Shown piece by piece: positions 4,054 to 14,842 of a DNA stretch of 52,798 nt. The stretch spans positions 1-52,798 of the forward strand of contig CAIZEI010000071.1 of the NCBI GenBank assembly GCA_903931945.1, in the 5' to 3' direction. Below the pieces are notes generated by a model, which worked only from the letters and a program-made list of their open reading frames with translations, had not been told where the DNA came from and did no database searches. A program made the position numbers and the translations under genes. Source of the DNA: an uncultured Hyphomicrobiales bacterium. GTDB lineage: Bacteria > Pseudomonadota > Alphaproteobacteria > Rhizobiales > Beijerinckiaceae. Every line of letters starts with the position of its first letter. Within the stretch, counting starts at the first letter, position 1.

Positions 4054-4851
4054 ATGGCATTGTCGGAAGAAGAAATCGAGCGTTACGCGCGGCACATCGT
4101 TTTGCATGGCGTTGGCGGGCCGGGCCAGCAGAAGATCCGGGCTGCGCGCATTCTTGTGGTCGGCGCTGGCGGGCTTGGCTCGCCTTTGATCCAGTATCTG
4201 GCGGCGGCGGGCGTTGGCGAACTTGGCATTGTCGATGATGACATTGTATCGCTCTCCAATTTGCAGCGACAGGTGCTGCATGGCACGCCCGACATTGGCC
4301 AAAGCAAGGTCGCGAGCGCGCGCAACGCCATCGCACGTCTCAATCCGCATGTGCGCGTGGCGGCGCACGGGTTCCGGATGACAGCGGCGAACGCTCGCGA
4401 ACTCGTGCGCGCCTATGATATCGTCGCGGATGGATCGGACAATTTCGACACGCGCTATCTTGTTTCGGACGCCTGTTTTTATGAGCGCAAGCCGCTCGTG
4501 ATGGGCGCCGTCGGCGCCTATGACGGCTCGCTGACAGTGTTGCGGCCATTCGAAAACGCCCGCAACGGCGAACCCAATCCCACCTATCGCTGCCTGTTTC
4601 CAGAGCGGCCGCCCGCTGGCGCCGTCGCCGCCTGTTCGGAAGCTGGCGTATTGGGCGCCCTCACTGGCGTTGTCGGTTCGATGATGGCTCTTGAGGTTCT
4701 GCGCGAGATTGCCGGTTTTGGCGAAAGCCTTGTCGGACGCCTGTTGCTGATGGACACGCGCGCCATGCGATTTGAAACAGTCGCTTATGGCTGGGATCCG
4801 GACAATCCGCTGAGTGGCAAGGCGGCGGCGAAACAGGACGCGCTGTCTTGA
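4054..4851 (+). CDS. moeB: MoeB/ThiF/HesA-family adenylyltransferase
   Basis: The 265-aa length is typical. The nucleotide-binding loop VVGAGGLGSP begins at about residue 35, followed by the acidic stretch DDD (61-63), the SNLQRQ motif (68-73) and the YRCLFPERPPAG...CSEAGVLG region that holds the family's adenylation core. These enzymes adenylate the C-terminal Gly-Gly of MoaD or ThiS before sulfur transfer in molybdopterin or thiamine synthesis. The zinc-binding CxxC pairs of E. coli MoeB are not obvious. The molybdenum hydroxylase genes 15 kb away would need molybdopterin, which makes MoeB plausible, but ThiF cannot be excluded. A GAGGG ribosome site precedes the ATG. It is divergent from the Uma2 gene. 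Confidence 0.85.
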   Translation: MALSEEEIERYARHIVLHGVGGPGQQKIRAARILVVGAGGLGSPLIQYLAAAGVGELGIVDDDIVSLSNLQRQVLHGTPDIGQSKVASARNAIARLNPHVRVAAHGFRMTAANARELVRAYDIVADGSDNFDTRYLVSDACFYERKPLVMGAVGAYDGSLTVLRPFENARNGEPNPTYRCLFPERPPAGAVAACSEAGVLGALTGVVGSMMALEVLREIAGFGESLVGRLLLMDTRAMRFETVAYGWDPDNPLSGKAAAKQDALS

Positions 4852-4904: not shown

Positions 4905-5423
4905 GTGTCGCTTTACGATTCCTCTATCCCCACATATCAACAGGTACTTGGCGGCATGCTCGGCGTGCTCGACAAGGCCATCGCTCAATATAGCGAGAAA
5001 AAATATGAGGATATCTCGCTTCTGCATGACCGTCTGTATCCCGACATGTTCACCTTCACCAAACAGGTGCAGTCGTTTTGTGATCACGCCTCGCGTTCAA
5101 GCCTGTTGCTCGCCGGCAAGGACAGCGCCCCGCCTGAGCGGAACGAAACCACGCTTGCCGCCCTGCGCGAGCGAATCGTAAAGGCTTTGTCTGCGGTGAA
5201 TTCCGTGTCGAAAGCCGATGTCGATGCGCATGCCGACAAGGATGTCACATTTCCGATGGGTCCGCGTCAGGTCACGATGAAAGGCGCGGATTACATGATG
5301 CATTTTGCATTCCCGAATTTCTATTTCCACGCGGTGACGGCATATAACATTCTGCGGCATCGCGGGGTTGTGATCGGCAAGCGCGATTTCCTCGGCGTGG
5401 TTCCAGGAATGCCGAAGGCGTGA
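4905..5423 (+). CDS. DUF1993 family protein, copy 1
   Basis: 172 aa, GTG start supported by AAGGGAGG seven bases upstream. The DUF1993 pattern is visible: YDSSIPTYQQVLGGMLGVLDKA at the N-terminus, a central DMFTFTKQVQSFCDHA helix, and HFAFPNFYFHAVTAYNILRHRGV near the C-terminus. The fold is thought to be a DinB/YfiT-like four-helix bundle, with unknown biochemical function. A second paralogue lies in opposite orientation at 6038-6562, on the far side of the RidA gene. The gene follows moeB by 53 bp and ends just before an intrinsic terminator. Confidence 0.88.
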   Translation: MSLYDSSIPTYQQVLGGMLGVLDKAIAQYSEKKYEDISLLHDRLYPDMFTFTKQVQSFCDHASRSSLLLAGKDSAPPERNETTLAALRERIVKALSAVNSVSKADVDAHADKDVTFPMGPRQVTMKGADYMMHFAFPNFYFHAVTAYNILRHRGVVIGKRDFLGVVPGMPKA

Positions 5424-5500: not shown

Positions 5501-5851
5501 ATGAGCATTCGCCGCATTGGCGTGGGTCCGCGCATGAGCGCCGCCGTCGTGCATGGCAATACGGTCTATCTCGCAGGGCAGGTCGCCGACAAGAGCAAGG
5601 GCGCCGGCGTGACCGAGCAGACGAAAGAAGTTCTGTCGATCATCGACGCGCTGCTGGCGCAGGCGGGAACCGACAAGACGAAAATCCTCTCCGCCACGAT
5701 CTATCTGCCCGATATCTCCACCTTCGCGCAAATGAACGCCGCCTGGGACACGTGGGTTGCCGCCGGCCATACGCCCGCGCGCGCCACAGTCGAAGCAAAA
5801 CTCGCGGCGCCTGACTACAAGGTTGAGATTGCGGTGATTGCTGCGGTGTGA
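5501..5851 (+). CDS. RidA/YjgF/YER057c-family protein
   Basis: 116 aa, the usual size for the family, which forms trimers and in well-studied members deaminates reactive enamine/imine intermediates. The N-terminal MSIRRIGVGPRMSAAVV, the central NTVYLAGQVAD and the C-terminal PARATVEAKLA with its conserved Arg fit the family. The C-terminus replaces the classical E-I-x-x-I/V-A of archetypal RidA with VEIAVIAAV, so it belongs to one of the side subfamilies, whose activities are less certain. AGGGAG precedes the ATG. The start codon is directly behind a strong terminator. The gene faces the second DUF1993 gene across a repeat-rich gap. Confidence 0.9.
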   Translation: MSIRRIGVGPRMSAAVVHGNTVYLAGQVADKSKGAGVTEQTKEVLSIIDALLAQAGTDKTKILSATIYLPDISTFAQMNAAWDTWVAAGHTPARATVEAKLAAPDYKVEIAVIAAV

Positions 5852-6037: not shown

Positions 6038-6562
6038 TTACCCTTCAATCAAACCCTGCACCGGCCCCATGAAATCGCGCTTGGCGAGCGTCACGCCGCT
6101 ATGGCGCAACAGGTCATAGGCCGTCGTGCAGTGAAAGAAGAAATGCGGCAGGGCGAAATGCAACAGAAAATCCTTGCCCTTGTATTTGCGCACATTCGGG
6201 CCGGCCTGGATAGACAGCACGACATCGGCGTGGGCGTCGATGGTCTTCCTGTCGACGGATTCGACAAAGGCAATCGCCTTCAGCACGCGCGCTTTCAATT
6301 CTTCAAACGTCTTTTCGTCGTCGGCGAATTTGATCATTTCGGCGCCGGACAATTTTGCCGCGATCACGGCGCCCCACATGGAGGCGACCTGAACCTGTTT
6401 GCCAAAGGCATACATGTCAGGCGCGAAACGCGCATCGATCAGCGCGCGCGGATCGACCTTTCGCTCGGCGGCAAAAGCGATGGCCTTGTCGATAACGCCG
6501 GCAAGGCCGGTGAGGTGCTGGGTGACGACGGGGATCGAGGCGTCGAAAAGAGTGAATGACAT
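6038..6562 (-). CDS. DUF1993 family protein, copy 2
   Basis: 174 aa with the same layout as copy 1: FDASIPVVTQHLTGLAGVIDKA, DMYAFGKQVQVASMWG, then LLHFALPHFFFHCTTAYDLLRHSGV and KRDFMGPV at the end. The last 50 residues of the two copies are clearly similar, while the middle has diverged, which points to an old duplication or two separate acquisitions. AGGAG lies before the ATG. It is the last gene of the long minus-strand series and follows the DUF35 gene by 20 bp, so it may be co-transcribed with the CoA-thioester cluster. Function unknown. Confidence 0.88.
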   Translation of the reverse strand: MSFTLFDASIPVVTQHLTGLAGVIDKAIAFAAERKVDPRALIDARFAPDMYAFGKQVQVASMWGAVIAAKLSGAEMIKFADDEKTFEELKARVLKAIAFVESVDRKTIDAHADVVLSIQAGPNVRKYKGKDFLLHFALPHFFFHCTTAYDLLRHSGVTLAKRDFMGPVQGLIEG

Positions 6563-6582: not shown

Positions 6583-6990
6583 CTAAACGGGTTTGAATTT
6601 CGGCACCGACACGCCTTCTGCGACATCGTCAAACACGACTGAAACGGGCATATCGCAGCGCACGTCGTCTGGTCGAATCCCGACAATGTTGGAGATCAGG
6701 CGCGGCCCCTCCTCCAGTTCGACGAGCGCCACCACATAGGGGACTTCTTCGGCAAAAGCCGGGTGATAGACGCGGTCATACATGACAAAGCTGAACACCT
6801 TGCCACGCCCGGAAACCTGTTTGAAGCCAACGTCAGCCGACATGCAATGCGGGCAGGAGCGCGAAGGCGGAAACCAGTAGCCGTCGCACGCGTGGCAGTG
6901 CGGAATTTCGAGACGGTGATGCCTCGCCGCCTCCCAATAGGGAACCGATTCCGGCGCCGGGCGGGGGAGGGGTTTGCGAACCTCAGACAT
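6583..6990 (-). CDS. DUF35 zinc-ribbon/OB-fold protein, partner of the thiolase-like protein
   Basis: About 135 aa. A rubredoxin-like zinc ribbon is formed by Cys32, Cys35, Cys46 and Cys49 (CHAC and CPHC), followed by an OB-fold with the GKVFSFVMYDRVYHPAF and PYVVALVELEEGPRLISN strands usual for DUF35. Such proteins work in a complex with thiolase-fold enzymes (for example ChsH2-DUF35 with Ltp2, or DitF-type aldolases) and bind acyl-CoA. The second of two adjacent ATG codons (6988-6990) is chosen because GGGGAGG is spaced correctly for it. This ATG shares its A with the thiolase stop (TGATG), which suggests coupled translation and a stoichiometric complex. Confidence 0.9.
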   Translation of the reverse strand: MSEVRKPLPRPAPESVPYWEAARHHRLEIPHCHACDGYWFPPSRSCPHCMSADVGFKQVSGRGKVFSFVMYDRVYHPAFAEEVPYVVALVELEEGPRLISNIVGIRPDDVRCDMPVSVVFDDVAEGVSVPKFKPV

Positions 6991-8171
6991 CATGCCCTCC
7001 CCAGAATGAGCGTGGAATGGCAGACCTGATTGCCGCCATGTCCCGAAATCAGCGCGATTTCAGCGTCCTTCACCTGCCGGTGCGCGGGATAGGTGTGGCG
7101 CATCTGCCGCGCGCCTTCAACGAGTTGCAATACGCCTTCGGCATGAGCCTCTGACAATTGCCCGCCGGATGTATTGGTTGGCAAGACGCCGCTCATGCGC
7201 AGCGCGCCGGAGGCGACGAAATCGCCGCCCTCGCCCTTCTTGCAGAAGCCGTAATCCTCCAGCTGCGTCAGCACCATATAGGTGAAGCAGTCATAAATTT
7301 GCGCGGTGTCGACGTCTTTGGGGCCAAGCCCCGCCATGGCGTAGGCGCGCTCGCCGCTTTGTTTGGCGGCGGTGACAACCATGTTGTCGTCGGCGAACCA
7401 GCCCTTGGTGTTGTTATGCGTGCCAAAACCCTTGATGATCACGGGCGGCTGCTTCAAATCCTTTGAGCGCGCCTTGCTTGTGACAATCACCGCGCCCGCC
7501 GCGTCGCTGCGCAAGCTGCAATCGTAGAGCCCGAAAGGCCGCACGATGGAGCGCTGCGCGTGATACTCCTCCATCGTCAGCGGCTTTTTCATCTGCGCCT
7601 GCGGATTGCGCAAGGCATGTTCGCGAAAGGCCACGGCGATATGGCCAAAATGCTCCTTCGTGGTGCCGTAAAGATGCATGTGGCGGGTCGCGCCGAAGGC
7701 ATGCGTCGCCGCGGCGCTGTAATAGCCGTATTCCGGGCCGAATTCGCGCGGCAGCTGACTTGGCGGGCGCGTCTCATTGCGCACGCGCGCTTCTTCATTG
7801 GCGTGTGTGCGCGACCAGGCGTCGCGTCCATAGCCGCAGATGACGGTGGTTGCGAGACCGTGCTTGATCGCCATTACAGCCAGCGCCACGGACAGGATCT
7901 GGCTGGCGCCGCCATTGGTCACAGTGGTGGAAAATTTGGCGTTGATGCCAAGCCGTCCGCCGACCTCCTGATGGTGGCTGTAAATCTCGTCCGGGCCGCG
8001 GCAGAGGATGCCGTCGATATCGCTGAGTTTCAGGCCGGAATCGTCGATGGCGTTGCGCATGGCCTCGACGATGAGATCAAGACTCGACACGCCCGGAACC
8101 TTGCCAAGCCGGCTGTTGCCAATGCCAACGATCGCGCAGGTGTCGCGAAGGTCTGAGGAGGATTCGATCAT
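6990..8171 (-). CDS. Thiolase-fold protein of the SCPx/Ltp2 type lacking the nucleophilic Cys
   Basis: 393 aa, length and fold markers of SCPx-like thiolases: AIVGIGNSRLGKVPG at the start, DIYDCFT-like AQIYDCFTYMVLTQLE around residue 295, GGQLSEAHAEG and the C-terminal LISGHGGNQVCHSTLILGR. The position that carries the catalytic Cys in thiolases (N-x-C-[AS]-[TS]) reads NGGAS at residues 86-90, so Cys is replaced by Gly. The steroid side-chain retro-aldolase Ltp2 has the same fold, lacks thiolase activity and needs a DUF35 partner, exactly the partner encoded next door. Retro-aldol cleavage of a beta-hydroxyacyl-CoA is therefore a better guess than thiolysis. AGGAG precedes the ATG. It lies 9 bp after the TctC gene. 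Confidence 0.85.
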   Translation of the reverse strand: MIESSSDLRDTCAIVGIGNSRLGKVPGVSSLDLIVEAMRNAIDDSGLKLSDIDGILCRGPDEIYSHHQEVGGRLGINAKFSTTVTNGGASQILSVALAVMAIKHGLATTVICGYGRDAWSRTHANEEARVRNETRPPSQLPREFGPEYGYYSAAATHAFGATRHMHLYGTTKEHFGHIAVAFREHALRNPQAQMKKPLTMEEYHAQRSIVRPFGLYDCSLRSDAAGAVIVTSKARSKDLKQPPVIIKGFGTHNNTKGWFADDNMVVTAAKQSGERAYAMAGLGPKDVDTAQIYDCFTYMVLTQLEDYGFCKKGEGGDFVASGALRMSGVLPTNTSGGQLSEAHAEGVLQLVEGARQMRHTYPAHRQVKDAEIALISGHGGNQVCHSTLILGRA

Positions 8172-8180
8172 GTCTGTCTC

Positions 8181-9293
8181 CTATTTCGCCAGCGCGCGCA
8201 GCCGCTCGATCACTTCGGGCGGCGCGCCATAGGCGCGGTCAAGCAATGCGTTGATGGCCGCGCCATCGACGGGCGCAATTTCGGCGTTGGCGCGCGCCGC
8301 GTCGGCCAGAAACAACGGGTCTTTCATCGTCGCATCGAAAGCCGCGCGCAACGCCGCCACGCGATCGGCTGGCACATCGGGCGGCAGGACGAATGGCCGC
8401 CCCATGACCTGTTCGGCAAAGGCGATTTCGAACAATTGCTTGTCCTCGGGCTTGTCCATCAATTCGATGGCTGTTGGAACATCGGGATAGGAGGGGTCGC
8501 GGGATTTGCCCATCGCCATGATGACGCGGGCCTTGCCATCCTTCACCCAGGGTTCGAACCGCCCACGAAATTCCGCTGAAGATCCGCCGGATATATGACC
8601 GTCTGTTTCATCGCGCTCAACCGCCATGAGGCAGGCCTGCGAGCCGTCATAACCCTCAATGGTTTTCAACTTGGCGCCATAAAGCGCATTCAGCATTCGG
8701 GCGTAAATCGAGCTTGGCGAATTATGCGCGGCGGAAGAAATGGTCATCTCACGGGTCTTGATATCGGCGGCTTTCAGAATGCCAGTCTTCGTATTCACGA
8801 GAAAGAAACCGACCTCCTGCTGCGGCGAACCGAGCCAGTGAAATTTGCGGGCGTCAAACTGGATCGCCGCATTGTTGAAATCATAAAACCGGGCAAGGCC
8901 GGTGTTGCGCGAGAGGCCGCCGATGACTGTGCCATCCTGCGCGGCGACGGAATAAAGATGATTGGCGGCCTTGATGCCCTCCGCACCCAGCATATTCTGC
9001 ACGAGAATTTGCGGTTCGCCGGGAATATGGCGCGTCATATGCGTGGCGAGCAGACGCGCATAAAGATCGTAACCGCCGCCGGGCGAGGCCGATGTCACCA
9101 GCGTGATGCGCTTGCCGCGATAGAAATCGGCGATGGCGTCGGCGCGCGCGGGGCGAAGGCCAGCTGCGACCGCCAGCGCGCCGAGCGCCATGGCGTTCAC
9201 GCTGCGGCGCGTCAGGAAGCCGCTGTCAATCGTTTGAACGCGAGAATCCAGCGGGCTCGTCGGGATGACATGTGTTTGACGCATCTTGCTCAT
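8181..9293 (-). CDS. TctC/Bug-type periplasmic binding protein 1 (Tat-like signal)
   Basis: About 370 aa. The N-terminus contains a twin-arginine-like signal (LTRRSVNAMALGALAVAAG, ending ARA), followed by mature sequence IADFYRGKRITLVTSASPGGGYDLYARLLA. The PGGxxD loop and the IPGEPQILVQNM...EG block are the usual ligand-side features of tripartite tricarboxylate transporter receptors. Start chosen at MSKMRQT because this ATG overlaps the CoA-transferase stop (ATGA); the longer frame upstream runs inside that gene. Encoded between the CoA-transferase and thiolase-like genes, it presumably captures the acid that this cluster degrades. No TctA/TctB is present in the window. Confidence 0.9.
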   Translation of the reverse strand: MSKMRQTHVIPTSPLDSRVQTIDSGFLTRRSVNAMALGALAVAAGLRPARADAIADFYRGKRITLVTSASPGGGYDLYARLLATHMTRHIPGEPQILVQNMLGAEGIKAANHLYSVAAQDGTVIGGLSRNTGLARFYDFNNAAIQFDARKFHWLGSPQQEVGFFLVNTKTGILKAADIKTREMTISSAAHNSPSSIYARMLNALYGAKLKTIEGYDGSQACLMAVERDETDGHISGGSSAEFRGRFEPWVKDGKARVIMAMGKSRDPSYPDVPTAIELMDKPEDKQLFEIAFAEQVMGRPFVLPPDVPADRVAALRAAFDATMKDPLFLADAARANAEIAPVDGAAINALLDRAYGAPPEVIERLRALAK

Positions 9294-10429
9294 GGTTTGC
9301 GTCCCAGCGAGGCAAGCACTTCTTCGGTGTGCTCGCCAAGCTCCGGGGAGGCGGACAAAATCTGCGGCGGCGTTTCGGAAAGGCGCAATCCGTTGCGCAC
9401 GAGGCCCACCGAGCCCAGCGCCCGATGCGGCATATCCACGCGCATCTTCAAATGTTTGACCTGTGGATCGTTGAACACATCGTCGAAATTGTTCAGCGGC
9501 GCGGAGGGAACGTCTTCGGCCAGCAACAGGTTCAGCCAATGCTCGCGCGGCATGGTTTTGAAGACGCCGGCCAGCCCCTCATGCAGGGCAGGATAATTCT
9601 TGCCGCGCGTTTCCTTGGTCGCGAAACGCGGGTCCTTCAAATATTCCGGTTTGCCGGCGACGCGCGTCAAACCCTCCCAGAACTTATTGGGTGAAGACAG
9701 ATGCACGACAAACGGCTTTCCGTCGCCGGCGACAAAAGCATAGACCTGCGCGCGATGCGTGCGCGTGGCCCGGCTCGGCGTCTTGCCGTTCTCGAAATAA
9801 TTGGCGGCGTTTTCGCCGCAAAAGGAGACTGCCGATTCGAGCAGCGAGGTATCCACGCGCTGGCCCCGGCCCGTTTTGCCGCGCGACACCAGCGCCGCCA
9901 GAATTCCGTTGCAGGCGACCATGCCGGCCAGATGGTCCGACAGAGAAATGCCCATCGGCTTGGGGTCTTCAATGTCGGTGAGCAGACTCAGCAGTCCGCT
10001 CATGGCCTGCCCGACCGTGTCATAGCCAGGACGCGCGGAATAGGGGCCATCCGAGCCAAAGCCGGTAATCGCGCAATAGATGAGGCCGGGATGATCCTGC
10101 CCGAGCGTGTCATATCCCAGGCCCAGGCGCTCCATTGTGCCGGAGCGAAAATTCTCGATCACCACATCCGCTGTTTTGACCAGCGCGCGCGCATGATCGC
10201 GGCCCGCCTCAGATTTGAGGTCGAGCGTGACGCTCTTCTTGTTGCGGTTCACCGAACCAAACGTCGGGCTGTATTCAACACGGCCCCAGCCGCGAAACGG
10301 GTCGCCCTTGCCCGGCGTTTCGACCTTGATGACATCCGCGCCGAGATCAGCGAGCAACATGCCCGCATAAGGGCCGGACACGTAGTTGGCGAATTCGATA
10401 ACGCGGATGCCGTTGAGCGCGCCGGTCAA
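9290..10429 (-). CDS. CaiB/BaiF (family III) CoA-transferase
   Basis: 379 aa. Family blocks are clear: the N-terminal LNGIRVIEFANYVSGPYAGMLLADLGADVIKVE, NRNKKSVTLDLK, VVIENFRSG, and the ISLSDHLAGM segment whose Asp165 matches the catalytic Asp that forms the acyl anhydride and CoA-ester intermediates. The enzyme moves CoA between organic acids and is likely the activation step of this cluster. The start codon is TTG with GGAGGAGACC in front. It overlaps the next gene by ATGA and lies 117 bp after the crotonase gene. It is the only CoA enzyme in this cluster in which the canonical catalytic residue is clearly retained. Confidence 0.93.
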   Translation of the reverse strand: MTGALNGIRVIEFANYVSGPYAGMLLADLGADVIKVETPGKGDPFRGWGRVEYSPTFGSVNRNKKSVTLDLKSEAGRDHARALVKTADVVIENFRSGTMERLGLGYDTLGQDHPGLIYCAITGFGSDGPYSARPGYDTVGQAMSGLLSLLTDIEDPKPMGISLSDHLAGMVACNGILAALVSRGKTGRGQRVDTSLLESAVSFCGENAANYFENGKTPSRATRTHRAQVYAFVAGDGKPFVVHLSSPNKFWEGLTRVAGKPEYLKDPRFATKETRGKNYPALHEGLAGVFKTMPREHWLNLLLAEDVPSAPLNNFDDVFNDPQVKHLKMRVDMPHRALGSVGLVRNGLRLSETPPQILSASPELGEHTEEVLASLGRKP

Positions 10430-10546
10430 TGTGGTCTCCTCCGAAGGTTCGATGTCTATTCTACCCGCGTGGCTCTAAAAGCAAAGCGGAATCGGCGCAT
10501 TTGGCAGGCGGTCTCGAGCCTTTATCCAAACGTCGGGTGGCGCGCG

Positions 10547-11347
10547 CTATCTTCCCGTAAATTTCGGGCGCCGTTTTTCCATAAAGGCGCGGCGACCTTC
10601 CTGAAAATCGGCGCTGCCCGCGCAAAGGTCTGAAAGCTTGCGGCATTTATCGAGATCGACGTGACGCATCTGGTCCGCCACCTCGTTGATGACGATTTTG
10701 GAGGCCGCCGTCGAGAGCGGCGCGTTGTCTGCGATATCGGCGATGTACTTTGCAAAGACATCGTCAAAGTCTGCGACCGGAACGACCCGGTGCACCAGGC
10801 CGATGGATGCAGCCTCGGCAGCCGGATAGCGCCGCGCCGTAATCAGAATTTCCTTCAGTCGCGCGGGGCCGACGATTTCATTGAGCCAGGCGATGAAATC
10901 GGCGCGATAGGCGATGCCGAGACGCCCGGCGGGGATACTGAACAGTGAATCATCCGATGCAATGCGCAGATCGCAGGCCGCTGCGAGACCCATGCCGCCG
11001 CCAAAGCAGAAACCACGAATGCGGGCGATGACCGGTTTTGGAAACTCGCGCACGCGCGTATACATTTGCGACGAAATTTTAGAATACCGCGCCGCCGTTT
11101 CGGCGTCCTTGCGGACTTTTTCAAATTCTGAAATGTCGGCGCCAGAGATAAAAGACGTATCGCCTGCGCCGCGTATCACCAGCAACCGGACATCCGGATT
11201 GCCGGCGAAACTCTCCAGCAAGTCCGCCGCCTGTTGCGACATGGCGACAGAAATCGCATTGCGCCGGGGTTCGTTGTCAAACAGCAATTCAGCGACGCCA
11301 TTCGCAATGGAGCCAACCACACGTCCCGGAGCTTTTTCCTCAGACAC
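10547..11347 (-). CDS. Crotonase-fold protein (enoyl-CoA hydratase-like) without both catalytic Glu
   Basis: 266 aa, GTG start with AGGGAG upstream. The oxyanion-hole blocks are present: SFISGADISEF at about 65-75 and FCFGGGMGLAAACDLRIAS at about 113-131. In enoyl-CoA hydratase the two acid/base glutamates sit in GGGxE and in the following PE motif. Here these positions are Gly120 (GGGMG) and Ala140 (IPAGRLG). The fold should still bind and polarise an acyl-CoA thioester, so isomerase, decarboxylase, hydrolase or lyase chemistry with other residues is possible. It lies 23 bp downstream of the SDR gene. Confidence 0.88.
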   Translation of the reverse strand: MSEEKAPGRVVGSIANGVAELLFDNEPRRNAISVAMSQQAADLLESFAGNPDVRLLVIRGAGDTSFISGADISEFEKVRKDAETAARYSKISSQMYTRVREFPKPVIARIRGFCFGGGMGLAAACDLRIASDDSLFSIPAGRLGIAYRADFIAWLNEIVGPARLKEILITARRYPAAEAASIGLVHRVVPVADFDDVFAKYIADIADNAPLSTAASKIVINEVADQMRHVDLDKCRKLSDLCAGSADFQEGRRAFMEKRRPKFTGR

Positions 11348-11370
11348 CCAGAATCTCCCTGTTGTGAAAT

Positions 11371-12144
11371 CTATTTTTTATACATATTGCCGGCGTCGAT
11401 CGTGATTTGCGCCGCCGACGTGTAGGATGATTTATCCGATGCAAGGAAGGCCACAGTCGAAGCGATTTCCTCACAGGACGCGATGCGCCCGCCCGGGTAG
11501 TCCTTCATGAATTCGACATAGCGCTCGGGATCGCCCAGTTTGCGGCGCGCATTTTCCTTGCTGAGATAGGTCTGCCGTTCGGACGCGGTTGCGCCGGGAT
11601 TGACCGCCAGCACGCGGACGCCATGATCGAAGGATTCGCGACCGAGGCACTGCACGAACATGTTGAGGGCGAGATTGGCCATACAGCCCGCGATGTAATT
11701 GGGGTTTGCGCTGAAGGCCGCTGCGCCGCAAATGCAAATGACGACGCCGCTTTTGCGCGCATACATTGCCGGCATCAGCGCGCGGGTCAACCCGACATAG
11801 CCATAGACCTTCAGGTCCCAGGCGGCCTTCCAGCGTTCGTGCGTCACGTCCTGCAGGTTGCCAGCCGGAATGGCGCCCGCATTGTTGACGAGAATATCCG
11901 GATTCGGACAGGCGGCGGCGAGCGCCAGAACATCCTCATGTCTTGAGAGATCGCATCCCTGCACGGCGACCGAGACGCCGTGCCTTGCCTTGAGTTCCTG
12001 CGCCAAAGCTTCCATCTGGTCGGCGGATCGCGCGGCAAGGTGCAGGTTGCAGCCCTCGGCGGCAAGCTCGCGCGCGATGGCCGCGCCAATGCCTTTGGAG
12101 GCGCCGGTCACAAGCGCCAGTTTGCCCTTGAGATTGAGTTCCAA
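11371..12144 (-). CDS. Short-chain dehydrogenase/reductase with atypical active site
   Basis: 257 aa, TTG start with GGGAGG upstream. The Rossmann signature TGASKGIG (13-20), the NNAG motif (87-90) and the N-terminal half are standard for classical SDRs. The catalytic Tyr is kept (Tyr150 in NPNYIAGC), but the Lys four residues later is Cys154 and the Ser thirteen residues before Tyr is Cys137. A side group of SDRs with a YIAG-x-x-GN-like motif exists among Rhizobiales (recalled, not checked), so this may be a real variant clade and not a decaying gene. The likely substrate is a hydroxy- or oxoacyl-CoA in this cluster. The NAD(P) preference was not determined. Confidence 0.87.
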   Translation of the reverse strand: MELNLKGKLALVTGASKGIGAAIARELAAEGCNLHLAARSADQMEALAQELKARHGVSVAVQGCDLSRHEDVLALAAACPNPDILVNNAGAIPAGNLQDVTHERWKAAWDLKVYGYVGLTRALMPAMYARKSGVVICICGAAAFSANPNYIAGCMANLALNMFVQCLGRESFDHGVRVLAVNPGATASERQTYLSKENARRKLGDPERYVEFMKDYPGGRIASCEEIASTVAFLASDKSSYTSAAQITIDAGNMYKK

Positions 12145-12195
12145 ACCCGCCTCCCCGATTTCGCCTTGCGAGACGCTCGCTTCGCTTCCTGCATT

Positions 12196-12846
12196 CTACC
12201 CGATATGGTCGCGGAACAGTTTCATCGTGCGCTCGCGTGCAATCGCCGCCGCCGCCGGAGTGTTGCCGTCAAAGCCATGGCCGGCGTTATAGACATGAAC
12301 GGGCAGAAGGGGAAAGGCTGTCCTGATCTTCTCGACATCGGCGAGGGGGATCAACCTGTCGGAATCGCCAAAATGCAATACAATAGGGCATTTGGGCGTG
12401 CGATCCAGAAAATCCACGACGTCCTTGCCATAATAGGACGCCGCTGCATCGAAGGGCAGGGAATGCGCGGCGAGCCAGACAACGGAGCCGCCAACGCAAT
12501 AGCCGACGATAGCCACCTTGCCGGCGCTTGCGACCCGCTGGCGGGCGGCGTCCACATCTTTCAGGACATCTTCCCAGACGAAGGCGTTGCGCATTCGGCC
12601 CGCTTCGGCGCCGCCCTCAGGCGTATGTTCAAACACCGCGCCGCGCCGCTGCCGATCATACAGGGCCGGCGCAAGAGTGAGATAACCCTCTCGGGCGAAT
12701 GCATCGCATACGCCGCGCAAGTAATCATCAAGGCCAAAGGCCGTCTGGATCACGATCAGGCCGCCGCGCGGGGCGACTGCGGGCGTCGACAAAAAGCCCG
12801 CGAGGCGGTGGCCATCGCGCGCTGTGATTTCAATTGTCTCGCCCAT
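12196..12846 (-). CDS. Dienelactone hydrolase-family protein 1
   Basis: 216 aa, near the usual 230. Alpha/beta-hydrolase nucleophile elbow GYCVGG places the catalytic Cys at 117, with Asp163 (FGDSDRLIP) and His190 (NAGHGFD) completing the triad. The Glu that activates Cys in carboxymethylenebutenolidase (QEIFG) is Thr35 here (IQTAFG), so the substrate or mechanism may differ. Carboxymethylenebutenolidases open dienelactone rings in chloroaromatic and related pathways. GGGGAGACGGG precedes the ATG. The gene is 51 bp before the SDR gene and 48 bp after the TctC gene, in the same minus-strand series. Confidence 0.88.
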   Translation of the reverse strand: MGETIEITARDGHRLAGFLSTPAVAPRGGLIVIQTAFGLDDYLRGVCDAFAREGYLTLAPALYDRQRRGAVFEHTPEGGAEAGRMRNAFVWEDVLKDVDAARQRVASAGKVAIVGYCVGGSVVWLAAHSLPFDAAASYYGKDVVDFLDRTPKCPIVLHFGDSDRLIPLADVEKIRTAFPLLPVHVYNAGHGFDGNTPAAAAIARERTMKLFRDHIG

Positions 12847-12894: not shown

Positions 12895-13920
12895 TCAAGA
12901 TGGCGGCGCGATTTCGCGTGCGCGCTGCACCACTGCTGCAGGCATGCCGTAAAGCCGCCGCACGAGCCTGTCCAGTTCATCGCCGCTGAGGGGATCGAGC
13001 GCAAGATTTTGTTTGGCCGCAATCGCAACGAAGTCCGGGTCGTGCATGGTTCTGGCGAAAGCCTCGCGCAACGCCAGCACCCGCGCTTGCGGCACGCCCG
13101 GCCCCATGAACGAGGGATAACCCATTGCGACAGGCGAAAATATCAGCTCCATGACCTGACGGTCTTCAACCGTTGTTGCAGCGTCGAGCGCCAGCGGGAC
13201 ATCGGGGAGATCGCTGGCCTTCTCGAGACCGATTTGCGCGAGAATGCGGACCTTGCCCTGTTGCAGCCATTCGAGTGAGCGTCCGCTTTTCAGCGAGCCC
13301 CAGGTCCAGATTTTGCCCTGCGCCTCGCCGCGTTGCATGGCAAGATCGACCTCCGTACTGCTTTTGTAGCCCGGCACGACCTTGAAACGCGTGCCAAGCA
13401 ATTTGTTCATCACCAGCGGAAACAGGCCTGTGTCGGTGCCAAGCGAGGTCGCGCCATAAACGACCTCCGTTGTCATGGCGTCCTTCAACGACCGCACCTC
13501 GGTTGCCTCGCTCCAGACTGTGGCGACGGTGGGTTCGCGCGAGGGGCTGCCGATCCATTGAAATTTGACGGGATCGAAATCCGCGCCGATGGATTTCAGC
13601 AGAGGGGCGCGAACAAATCCGCGCGTGATAAAGCCCCAGGCGGTCCCATCCTGTGGCGCAACAGATTGCAGGAACATCGCCGCCTTGAAACCGCCCGCGC
13701 CTGGCATGTTGCGCAAAATGATCGTGGGATGGCCGGGTATATAGCGCGGCATGATTTCCGCTATCGCCTGCGGATAGGCGGTAAGCGCGCCCGCGCCTTC
13801 GCCGGTGCCGATGTAAATGCTGATGATCTTGCCGCGATAGAAGTCCTCAACGCCCTGCGCCAGCGCAGGCCTCGCCAGCGCAGACGTCAACAGACAGAAG
13901 ATGATATTCAGCGCTTTCAT
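12895..13920 (-). CDS. TctC/Bug-type periplasmic binding protein 2
   Basis: 341 aa from the ATG at 13920, chosen because MKALNIIFCLLTSALARPAL followed by AQG makes a good Sec signal peptide; the frame continues upstream without support. The mature part starts VEDFYRGKIISIYIG and has the IPGHPTIILRNMPGAGGFKAA block of the FYRGK-type TctC proteins. The ligand-loop motif PGGxxD is replaced by GEGAGAL, so the acidic contact residue is missing and the ligand may be recognised differently. It is first in the minus-strand CoA-thioester series and probably heads that operon. No membrane partner is encoded nearby. Confidence 0.88.
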   Translation of the reverse strand: MKALNIIFCLLTSALARPALAQGVEDFYRGKIISIYIGTGEGAGALTAYPQAIAEIMPRYIPGHPTIILRNMPGAGGFKAAMFLQSVAPQDGTAWGFITRGFVRAPLLKSIGADFDPVKFQWIGSPSREPTVATVWSEATEVRSLKDAMTTEVVYGATSLGTDTGLFPLVMNKLLGTRFKVVPGYKSSTEVDLAMQRGEAQGKIWTWGSLKSGRSLEWLQQGKVRILAQIGLEKASDLPDVPLALDAATTVEDRQVMELIFSPVAMGYPSFMGPGVPQARVLALREAFARTMHDPDFVAIAAKQNLALDPLSGDELDRLVRRLYGMPAAVVQRAREIAPPS

Positions 13921-13996
13921 GAGGCCTGCCGCAGTGGGGCGATCGGAGCATGATCGGCATCCCCAGGGCAAAAGGCAAGCGCGCCGATTTGCCGCG

Positions 13997-14842
13997 CTAT
14001 TCCCCAACAACCCAATCGATCCTGAAGGCCGCGCCGTCATCCCGCCCAAGTGTTTTGACGAACCACGGCAGCAACTCGCGCGCTTCGGCCTCCAGCGGGA
14101 AGGGCGGATTGATGATCAACATCCCGCAGCCGGACAGAGGTCCGGGTTCGCGCCGGCGCGCGATGTCGAGCTCAAGCCGCAGGATACGGCGAAGGCCGGC
14201 TTCCGCCAGACCCTCCACAAATGTCTGCGCTTCGTCCGGGCGCTTCAGCGGATACCAGAGGGCGTAAACGCCCGTCGGCCATTTCTTCCATGCCCGTATG
14301 GTCGCAGCAGCCATGTCGCCGAATTCGTCGGGTTCTTCAAACGGCGGATCGATCAGCACCAGGCCTCGCCGCTCGGGCGGCGGCACATTCGCATTCAGCG
14401 CGACATAGCCGTCCAAGTGAAACGTCTTAACGCTTTTGTCGCGCCCGATGGTTGATTCGAGCCTGGCCGCGTCGCGTTCTTGCCATTCGCACAGGATCAG
14501 CCGGTCGACGGGGCGCAGCAGCGCTTGCGCAATCAGGGGCGAGCCGGGATATTCGAAAGGCTCTTGCCCGCTGCGCAGCCCGGTCGCATCAAGCCAGGGT
14601 TTCAGCAGCGATTCGATTGCTGCTGGAATATCCGCCGAGGCAATACGCCCGACGCCATCGCGCCATTCGGCGCCGCGCACGGCCTCCTCGCTTTTGAGAT
14701 CGTAGAGACCCTTGCCAGCATGTGTGTCGATATATCTCAGCGGCGCATCCTTGCGCATGAGATAAACAAGCATTCGCGTCAGAAGCGCGTGCTTGAAAAC
14801 ATCGGCGAAATTGCCCGCATGGAACGCGTGGCGGTAATTCAC
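13997..14842 (-). CDS. rlmJ: 23S rRNA (adenine(2030)-N6)-methyltransferase RlmJ
   Basis: 281 aa from a GTG start. The family begins with (M)xYRHxFHAGNxADVxKH, and the frame reads NYRHAFHAGNFADVFKHALL right after this GTG, whereas the upstream extension of the open frame has no family similarity. DTHAGKGLYDL (SAM site), EYPGSP and the catalytic DPPFE segment are present. RlmJ methylates A2030 of 23S rRNA. The GTG overlaps the stop of the RNase T2 gene (GTGA), so translation of the two is probably coupled, a curious pairing of a periplasmic nuclease with an rRNA methyltransferase. Confidence 0.93.
   Translation of the reverse strand: MNYRHAFHAGNFADVFKHALLTRMLVYLMRKDAPLRYIDTHAGKGLYDLKSEEAVRGAEWRDGVGRIASADIPAAIESLLKPWLDATGLRSGQEPFEYPGSPLIAQALLRPVDRLILCEWQERDAARLESTIGRDKSVKTFHLDGYVALNANVPPPERRGLVLIDPPFEEPDEFGDMAAATIRAWKKWPTGVYALWYPLKRPDEAQTFVEGLAEAGLRRILRLELDIARRREPGPLSGCGMLIINPPFPLEAEARELLPWFVKTLGRDDGAAFRIDWVVGE

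Follow-up and report, generated by a model that had tools for sequence, protein, structure and literature searches.

What does it mean when several enzymes encoded side by side all appear to lack the canonical catalytic residues of their families? This question is raised by a minus-strand gene run in a 52,798-nucleotide stretch of DNA (the window, by which we mean the whole stretch analysed) that lies in contig C71 (CAIZEI010000071.1) of the 5.03-Mb draft genome of an uncultured Hyphomicrobiales bacterium. The original prediction, made from the sequence alone, was that a thiolase-like protein, a crotonase, a short-chain dehydrogenase/reductase (SDR) and a dienelactone hydrolase (DLH)-like protein encoded here each lack catalytic residues, and that the cluster uses family folds for other chemistry. 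We find that the locus is a real operon in which a predicted aldolase of known type occurs together with members of two subfamilies, PRK06127 (the crotonase) and PRK06125 (the SDR), and that its odd active sites are mostly inherited subfamily traits, nothing special to this genome. We put at roughly 0.55 the probability that the operon serves as a CoA-dependent module for degrading an acid, in which acid uptake, CoA transfer and retro-aldol cleavage are combined with a crotonase and an SDR that prepare the substrate.

Organization of the gene run

The open reading frame (ORF) listing bears out the claim of a contiguous minus-strand cluster with intact frames; the run also includes two genes of TctC type and one encoding a DUF1993 protein, none of which had been mentioned. 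In order of transcription the genes are:

12895..13920, minus strand: tctC2, TctC-family receptor (PF03401, 37.3 bits against a cut-off of 27; the ORF spans 12895-14049, and the start at ATG 13920 is our choice)
12196..12846, minus strand: DLH-family protein (PF01738, 114.2 bits; aligned with 1din)
11371..12144, minus strand: SDR of subfamily PRK06125 (NF004779, 318.4 bits against a cut-off of 261)
10547..11347, minus strand: crotonase of subfamily PRK06127 (NF004781, 312.1 bits against a cut-off of 291)
9290..10429, minus strand: CaiB, family III CoA-transferase with Asp165 (PF02515, 394.8 bits)
8181..9293, minus strand: tctC1, called a TctC-like receptor because tctC1 and tctC2 homologues are 31-41% similar (ATG at 9293; its start overlaps the caiB stop)
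6990..8171, minus strand: thiolase-like protein, predicted Sal/Ltp2-type aldolase with Gly88 and Tyr293-Asp294-Cys295-Phe296 (PF22691; nearest solved chains 4u4e, 6ok1 and 9myr)
6583..6993, minus strand: DUF35 partner with a zinc ribbon (Cys33, Cys36, Cys47, Cys50) and an OB fold (PF12172, PF01796)
6038..6562, minus strand: DUF1993 protein, last in the run (PF09351, 167.6 bits)

Because the intergenic gaps are short, and because caiB and tctC1 as well as the aldolase and DUF35 genes overlap by a few bases, the run is likely one operon.

The thiolase-like protein resembles Sal/Ltp2-type aldolases

Alignments (for example, against 6esq) confirm that Gly88 stands in place of the nucleophilic Cys of canonical thiolases; this Gly is present in 120/120 homologues among the matches listed, and solved chains 4u4e, 6ok1 and 9myr also have Gly at this position. 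The YDCF motif Tyr293-Asp294-Cys295-Phe296 is likewise invariant in these 120 homologues, and in the alignment with 9MYR, Tyr293 falls on Tyr302 and Cys295 on Cys304, residues of the YDCY motif of Sal from Comamonas testosteroni that are reported to be catalytic (PMC12329534). The best solved match of the adjoining DUF35 protein is 6ok1_B, which is ChsH2(DUF35), and the four-Cys (C4) zinc site is found in 24/24 distinct sequences. Since Gly replaces Cys, YDCF occupies the catalytic positions of Sal and a DUF35 gene lies next door, the thiolase-like protein and DUF35 are, on sequence grounds, best read as a putative Sal/Ltp2-type retro-aldolase; the suggestion of retro-aldol cleavage with a DUF35 partner is thus supported for this protein.

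The likeness to known systems is close in some features and not in others. The bile-acid side-chain aldolase Sal-Shy(DUF35) (9MYR) shares the thiolase fold, the Gly at the Cys position, the YDC motif and the DUF35 partner, but the DUF35 protein of the window is separate and short, with a C4 rather than a C3H1 zinc site; the window has YDCF where Sal has YDCY, its aldolase gene lies beside CaiB and TctC genes, and there is no fused MaoC hydratase in the window (PMC12329534). Ltp2-ChsH2(DUF35) (6ok1) has the same fold and partner, provides the best match of the DUF35 protein and keeps the first catalytic Tyr; it differs in having YDHF in place of YDCF and Tyr344 in place of His343.

A conserved four-gene unit

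The DUF35 gene directly follows the aldolase gene in 23/23 loci (22 of the 29 aldolase matches together with locus L003), and 19 of the 23 preserve the order CaiB, TctC, aldolase, DUF35. Gene order across these loci shows that CaiB, a TctC-like receptor, a predicted Sal/Ltp2-type aldolase and DUF35 make up a conserved four-gene unit. The four exceptions are L181, at a contig end; L188, with TctC and no CaiB; L198, with CaiB downstream; and L118, a paralogue from the genome of the window itself (contig C40, 3125-8001), which has TctC, aldolase (67%) and DUF35 (53%) genes and in which CaiB is replaced by an acyl-CoA-synthetase-type gene (PF13607, PF13549, PF13380) located after DUF35. The catalytic Asp of family III CoA-transferases, Asp165 of CaiB, is kept in 87/87 distinct matches, in agreement with the original prediction.

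What precedes the unit varies. L003 has the crotonase alone, with no SDR seen, and 2-oxoacid:acceptor oxidoreductase genes lie upstream of the SDR in L103 and L105 (in L105 the alpha subunit is over the NCBIfam cut-off and the beta subunit is below it). LigXa-type Rieske genes stand ahead of the unit, in its orientation, in 5/19 loci (L186, L187, L189, L190 and L191), and cupin genes precede it in 5/19 (L180, L186, L187, L189 and L190); in L186, L187, L189 and L190, the Rieske gene and two tandem cupin genes lie just upstream of the unit. In sister genomes (L182, 10982-14509; L185; L188), genes of the PdxA and arylmalonate-decarboxylase families lie close to the aldolase unit together with TctC-like receptors.

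A literature search for a published cluster of CaiB, DUF35 and aldolase genes found none and returned mostly steroid aldolases; a paper on thiodipropionate (PMC6370202) is loosely analogous at most. What the locus adds is a Sal-like, cysteine-less thiolase aldolase in a conserved unit with a CoA-transferase, at loci where no steroid context was seen.

The crotonase and SDR active sites are subfamily traits

Alignment of the crotonase with LiuC (5jbw), which has both catalytic Glu residues of a canonical enoyl-CoA hydratase, places Gly120 and Ala140 at these two positions, exactly as had been proposed. Solved chains 4olq and 4wcz similarly lack both Glu residues. Among the matches listed, 120 sequences (one being that of the window) have Ala (117) or Ser (3) at position 140 and Gly (57) or Ala (63) at position 120, and Tyr147 is invariant. 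At the best 80 of 576 candidate genome loci, Ala140 and Tyr147 are each found in 80/80 and position 120 is Gly (50), Ala (20), Ser (6), Asn (3) or Gln (1); a CaiB gene lies at most 600 bases away on the same strand in 49/80 of these loci, and at least 1.3 kb of upstream DNA is available in 74/80. The named contigs with the closest crotonases (L003 and L004) are metagenome-assembled genomes of uncultured Rhizobiales and Beijerinckiaceae. Loss of both Glu residues is an old trait of the subfamily, NCBIfam PRK06127 (named 'enoyl-CoA hydratase'); its relatives have the same residues at the Glu positions, and we found no difference between the window crotonase and this family.

For the SDR, the original prediction had been anchored on Tyr150 and had assigned Cys137 to the catalytic Ser and Cys154 to the Lys. 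When the protein is aligned by L-INS-i with 16 more distant SDRs taken from the fetched loci, the key residues fall elsewhere in the chain, and we reject the former assignment on this basis. The Ser column (Ser in 10/16) holds Gly140 and the Lys column (Lys in 15/16) holds Asn157; the Tyr column (Tyr in 10/16) holds Gly153 and the Asn column (Asn in 10/16) holds Lys112, such that none of the classical Asn-Ser-Tyr-Lys tetrad is present. Cys137 aligns instead with a position that is Asn in 95/120 sequences among the matches listed. Tyr150, three residues ahead of the usual Tyr, is a signature of subfamily PRK06125; contrary to the L-INS-i alignment, phmmer sets Tyr150 against the Tyr of 3ai1 and 3ai3 through a three-residue gap, with Asn157 still on the Lys. 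The Tyr-x6-Asn spacing resembles the Tyr-x6-Lys of enoyl-ACP reductases.

Lys112, Gly140, Tyr150, Gly153 and Asn157 are invariant in 120 SDR sequences among the matches listed (one from the window) and in 30/30 members found class-wide, as is characteristic of NCBIfam PRK06125, named 'short-chain dehydrogenase/reductase'. The window SDR differs from the class-wide members at position 154, which is Cys in 118/120 of the matches listed but Ser (21), Thr (8) or Ala (1) in the 30. The family occurs in 32/190 genomes of the class and in 0/14 control genomes. Targeted literature searches turned up nothing on either PRK06127 or PRK06125. For both proteins the annotated name is not borne out by the active site, and the operon brings the aldolase, crotonase and SDR types together for joint assay.

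The SDR-crotonase pair recurs in relatives. In 61 genomes of relatives, we detected nine SDR genes at E≤1e-60, distributed over seven genomes, with a crotonase match within 5 kb of 7/9 and CaiB within 5 kb of 9/9. Given one or two such crotonases per genome, proximity by chance would be rare. In an NCBIfam scan of relatives other than L103-L105, two crotonases (L106, L199) exceeded the PRK06127 cut-off and four SDRs (the first copy in L106 and those in L196, L197 and L199) exceeded that of PRK06125. Against a family-wide link, CaiB was found in one and crotonase in two of 30 class-wide SDR loci (about 1.5 kb on each side). The cluster in L106 (2489-15476) is larger, with several TctC genes, CaiB, an acyl-CoA dehydrogenase, a PRK06127 crotonase, a DLH and two PRK06125-like SDRs, and MmgE/PrpD nearby.

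The DLH substitution was seen only in this genome

The claim that the DLH lacks a catalytic residue holds for the activating residue, since alignment with dienelactone hydrolase 1din puts Thr35 at the position of Glu36, and fails for the triad, Cys117-Asp163-His190, which is intact, as is the fold. Of the distinct matches, we counted 32 that reach about 180 residues or more, two of which are the window's own (Thr35); in the other 30, position 35 is Glu (23), Asp (5), Ala (1) or Ser (1), with Asp in all four other proteins at about 50% identity or more and in one at 44%. Thr35 occurs in none of the relatives examined. Five genomes of the same genus carry a DLH at E below 1e-60, and a sample of 396 further genomes from the order yielded none at E≤1e-55; in genomes G015 and G009, a more distant DLH lies elsewhere.

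Nor do the four variants occur together as a rule, a notion that we reject. The aldolase, crotonase and SDR variants are found together in L103, L104 and L105, none of which showed a DLH match (L104 has just 0.9 kb ahead of the SDR); L003, also without a DLH match, lacks an SDR as far as seen, and L106 has the crotonase, the SDR and a DLH with Asp35, with no aldolase match. Judged from these comparisons, the apparent four-fold coincidence reduces to three subfamily traits and one change seen solely in this genome. Because these substitutions are long-standing features of named subfamilies and occur well beyond the cluster, they are not by themselves a mark of a special pathway here. Use of family folds for other chemistry is possible for the crotonase and SDR; the DLH, with its intact triad and a Thr35 found in no relative examined, does not fit.

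A putative acid-degradation route and its alternatives

In the module we favor, the TctC-like receptor would serve organic-acid uptake and CaiB would form the CoA thioester of the imported acid. The Glu-less crotonase and the SDR with the displaced Tyr, which lie upstream of the unit in this clade, probably convert the CoA ester to the substrate of the aldolase, and the DLH may open a lactone. The predicted aldolase-DUF35 complex would then cut a β-hydroxyacyl-CoA by retro-aldol cleavage into a short acyl-CoA and an aldehyde or ketone, with Tyr293 as the likely base acting on the hydroxyl and Cys295 as the residue that would protonate the enolate. An aromatic or cyclic acid as substrate is guesswork, prompted by the oxygenase genes that lie beside the unit in sister genomes.

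Several observations weigh against this module. The aldolase is below every NCBIfam cut-off, tctC1 has no match in Pfam or NCBIfam scans, and His343 stands where Ltp2 has its second catalytic Tyr, Tyr344. The SDR and crotonase genes precede the unit in only 4/19 loci (the window, L103, L104 and L105), and the aldolase lacks a nearby CaiB in L188 and has it downstream in L198. For the cupin, the match to gentisate dioxygenase is weak (E 3.6e-4) and is exceeded by that to auxin-binding protein (1.5e-4). Finally, the solved relatives act on steroids, and no steroid gene was identified here, with no search aimed at such genes.

There is a sizeable chance, somewhat short of even, that the crotonase and SDR carry out ordinary hydratase/isomerase and oxidoreductase chemistry through substitute residues (for example, Tyr147; Lys112, Tyr150 and Asn157), with nothing chemically new. 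The SDR keeps its NAD(P)-binding residues (TGxxxGxG, Asn87 and Asn88), and its nearest solved relatives bind NADP(H), going by entry titles; the models of the SDR (pLDDT 93.0) and crotonase (pLDDT 92.0) match structures of their superfamilies, a fold that is uninformative on chemistry. However, the SDR is altered at all four positions of the tetrad and the crotonase at both Glu positions, with the changes fixed, and the literature searches found no member of either subfamily with known activity. A bolder proposal, which we consider unlikely, is that these two widespread subfamilies, with putative rebuilt active sites (Lys112/Tyr150/Asn157 in the SDR; no Glu, and Tyr147, in the crotonase), act in series on CaiB-made CoA esters in steps not described for either superfamily, here feeding a CoA-dependent route that handles ring-fission products by retro-aldol cleavage and bypasses β-oxidation.

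It is doubtful that the thiolase-like/DUF35 pair instead performs Claisen-type or acyl-transfer chemistry, as do BbsAB (benzoylsuccinyl-CoA thiolase) and the PhlABC acyltransferase. Chains of both BbsAB and PhlBC turn up among solved relatives of the pair, the BbsA and BbsB models of NCBIfam match weakly, and His343 is kept in 120/120 homologues among the matches listed, but the nucleophilic Cys is gone in every one of these, the protein carries the Sal motif, and among solved chains the aldolases 6ok1 and 9myr outscore BbsB and PhlC.

Decay of a dying cluster, which the original prediction had also thought improbable, is very unlikely and is rejected for the set as a whole despite the solitary Thr35 of the DLH, since frames are intact, dN/dS against L103 is 0.07-0.22 for six genes (rough values, as synonymous distances are 0.9-1.8, and with the DLH outside the six) and the substitutions in the aldolase, crotonase and SDR are fixed in their subfamilies.

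The DUF1993 genes

A DUF1993 gene also follows DUF35 in L103 and L003. The window has two DUF1993 genes on opposite strands, 4905-5423 (plus) and 6038-6562 (minus), which are about 42% alike; a small ORF (5501-5851, plus) lies between them and a ThiF-family gene (4054-4851, plus) adjoins. L103 also carries both DUF1993 genes, with similar neighbours.

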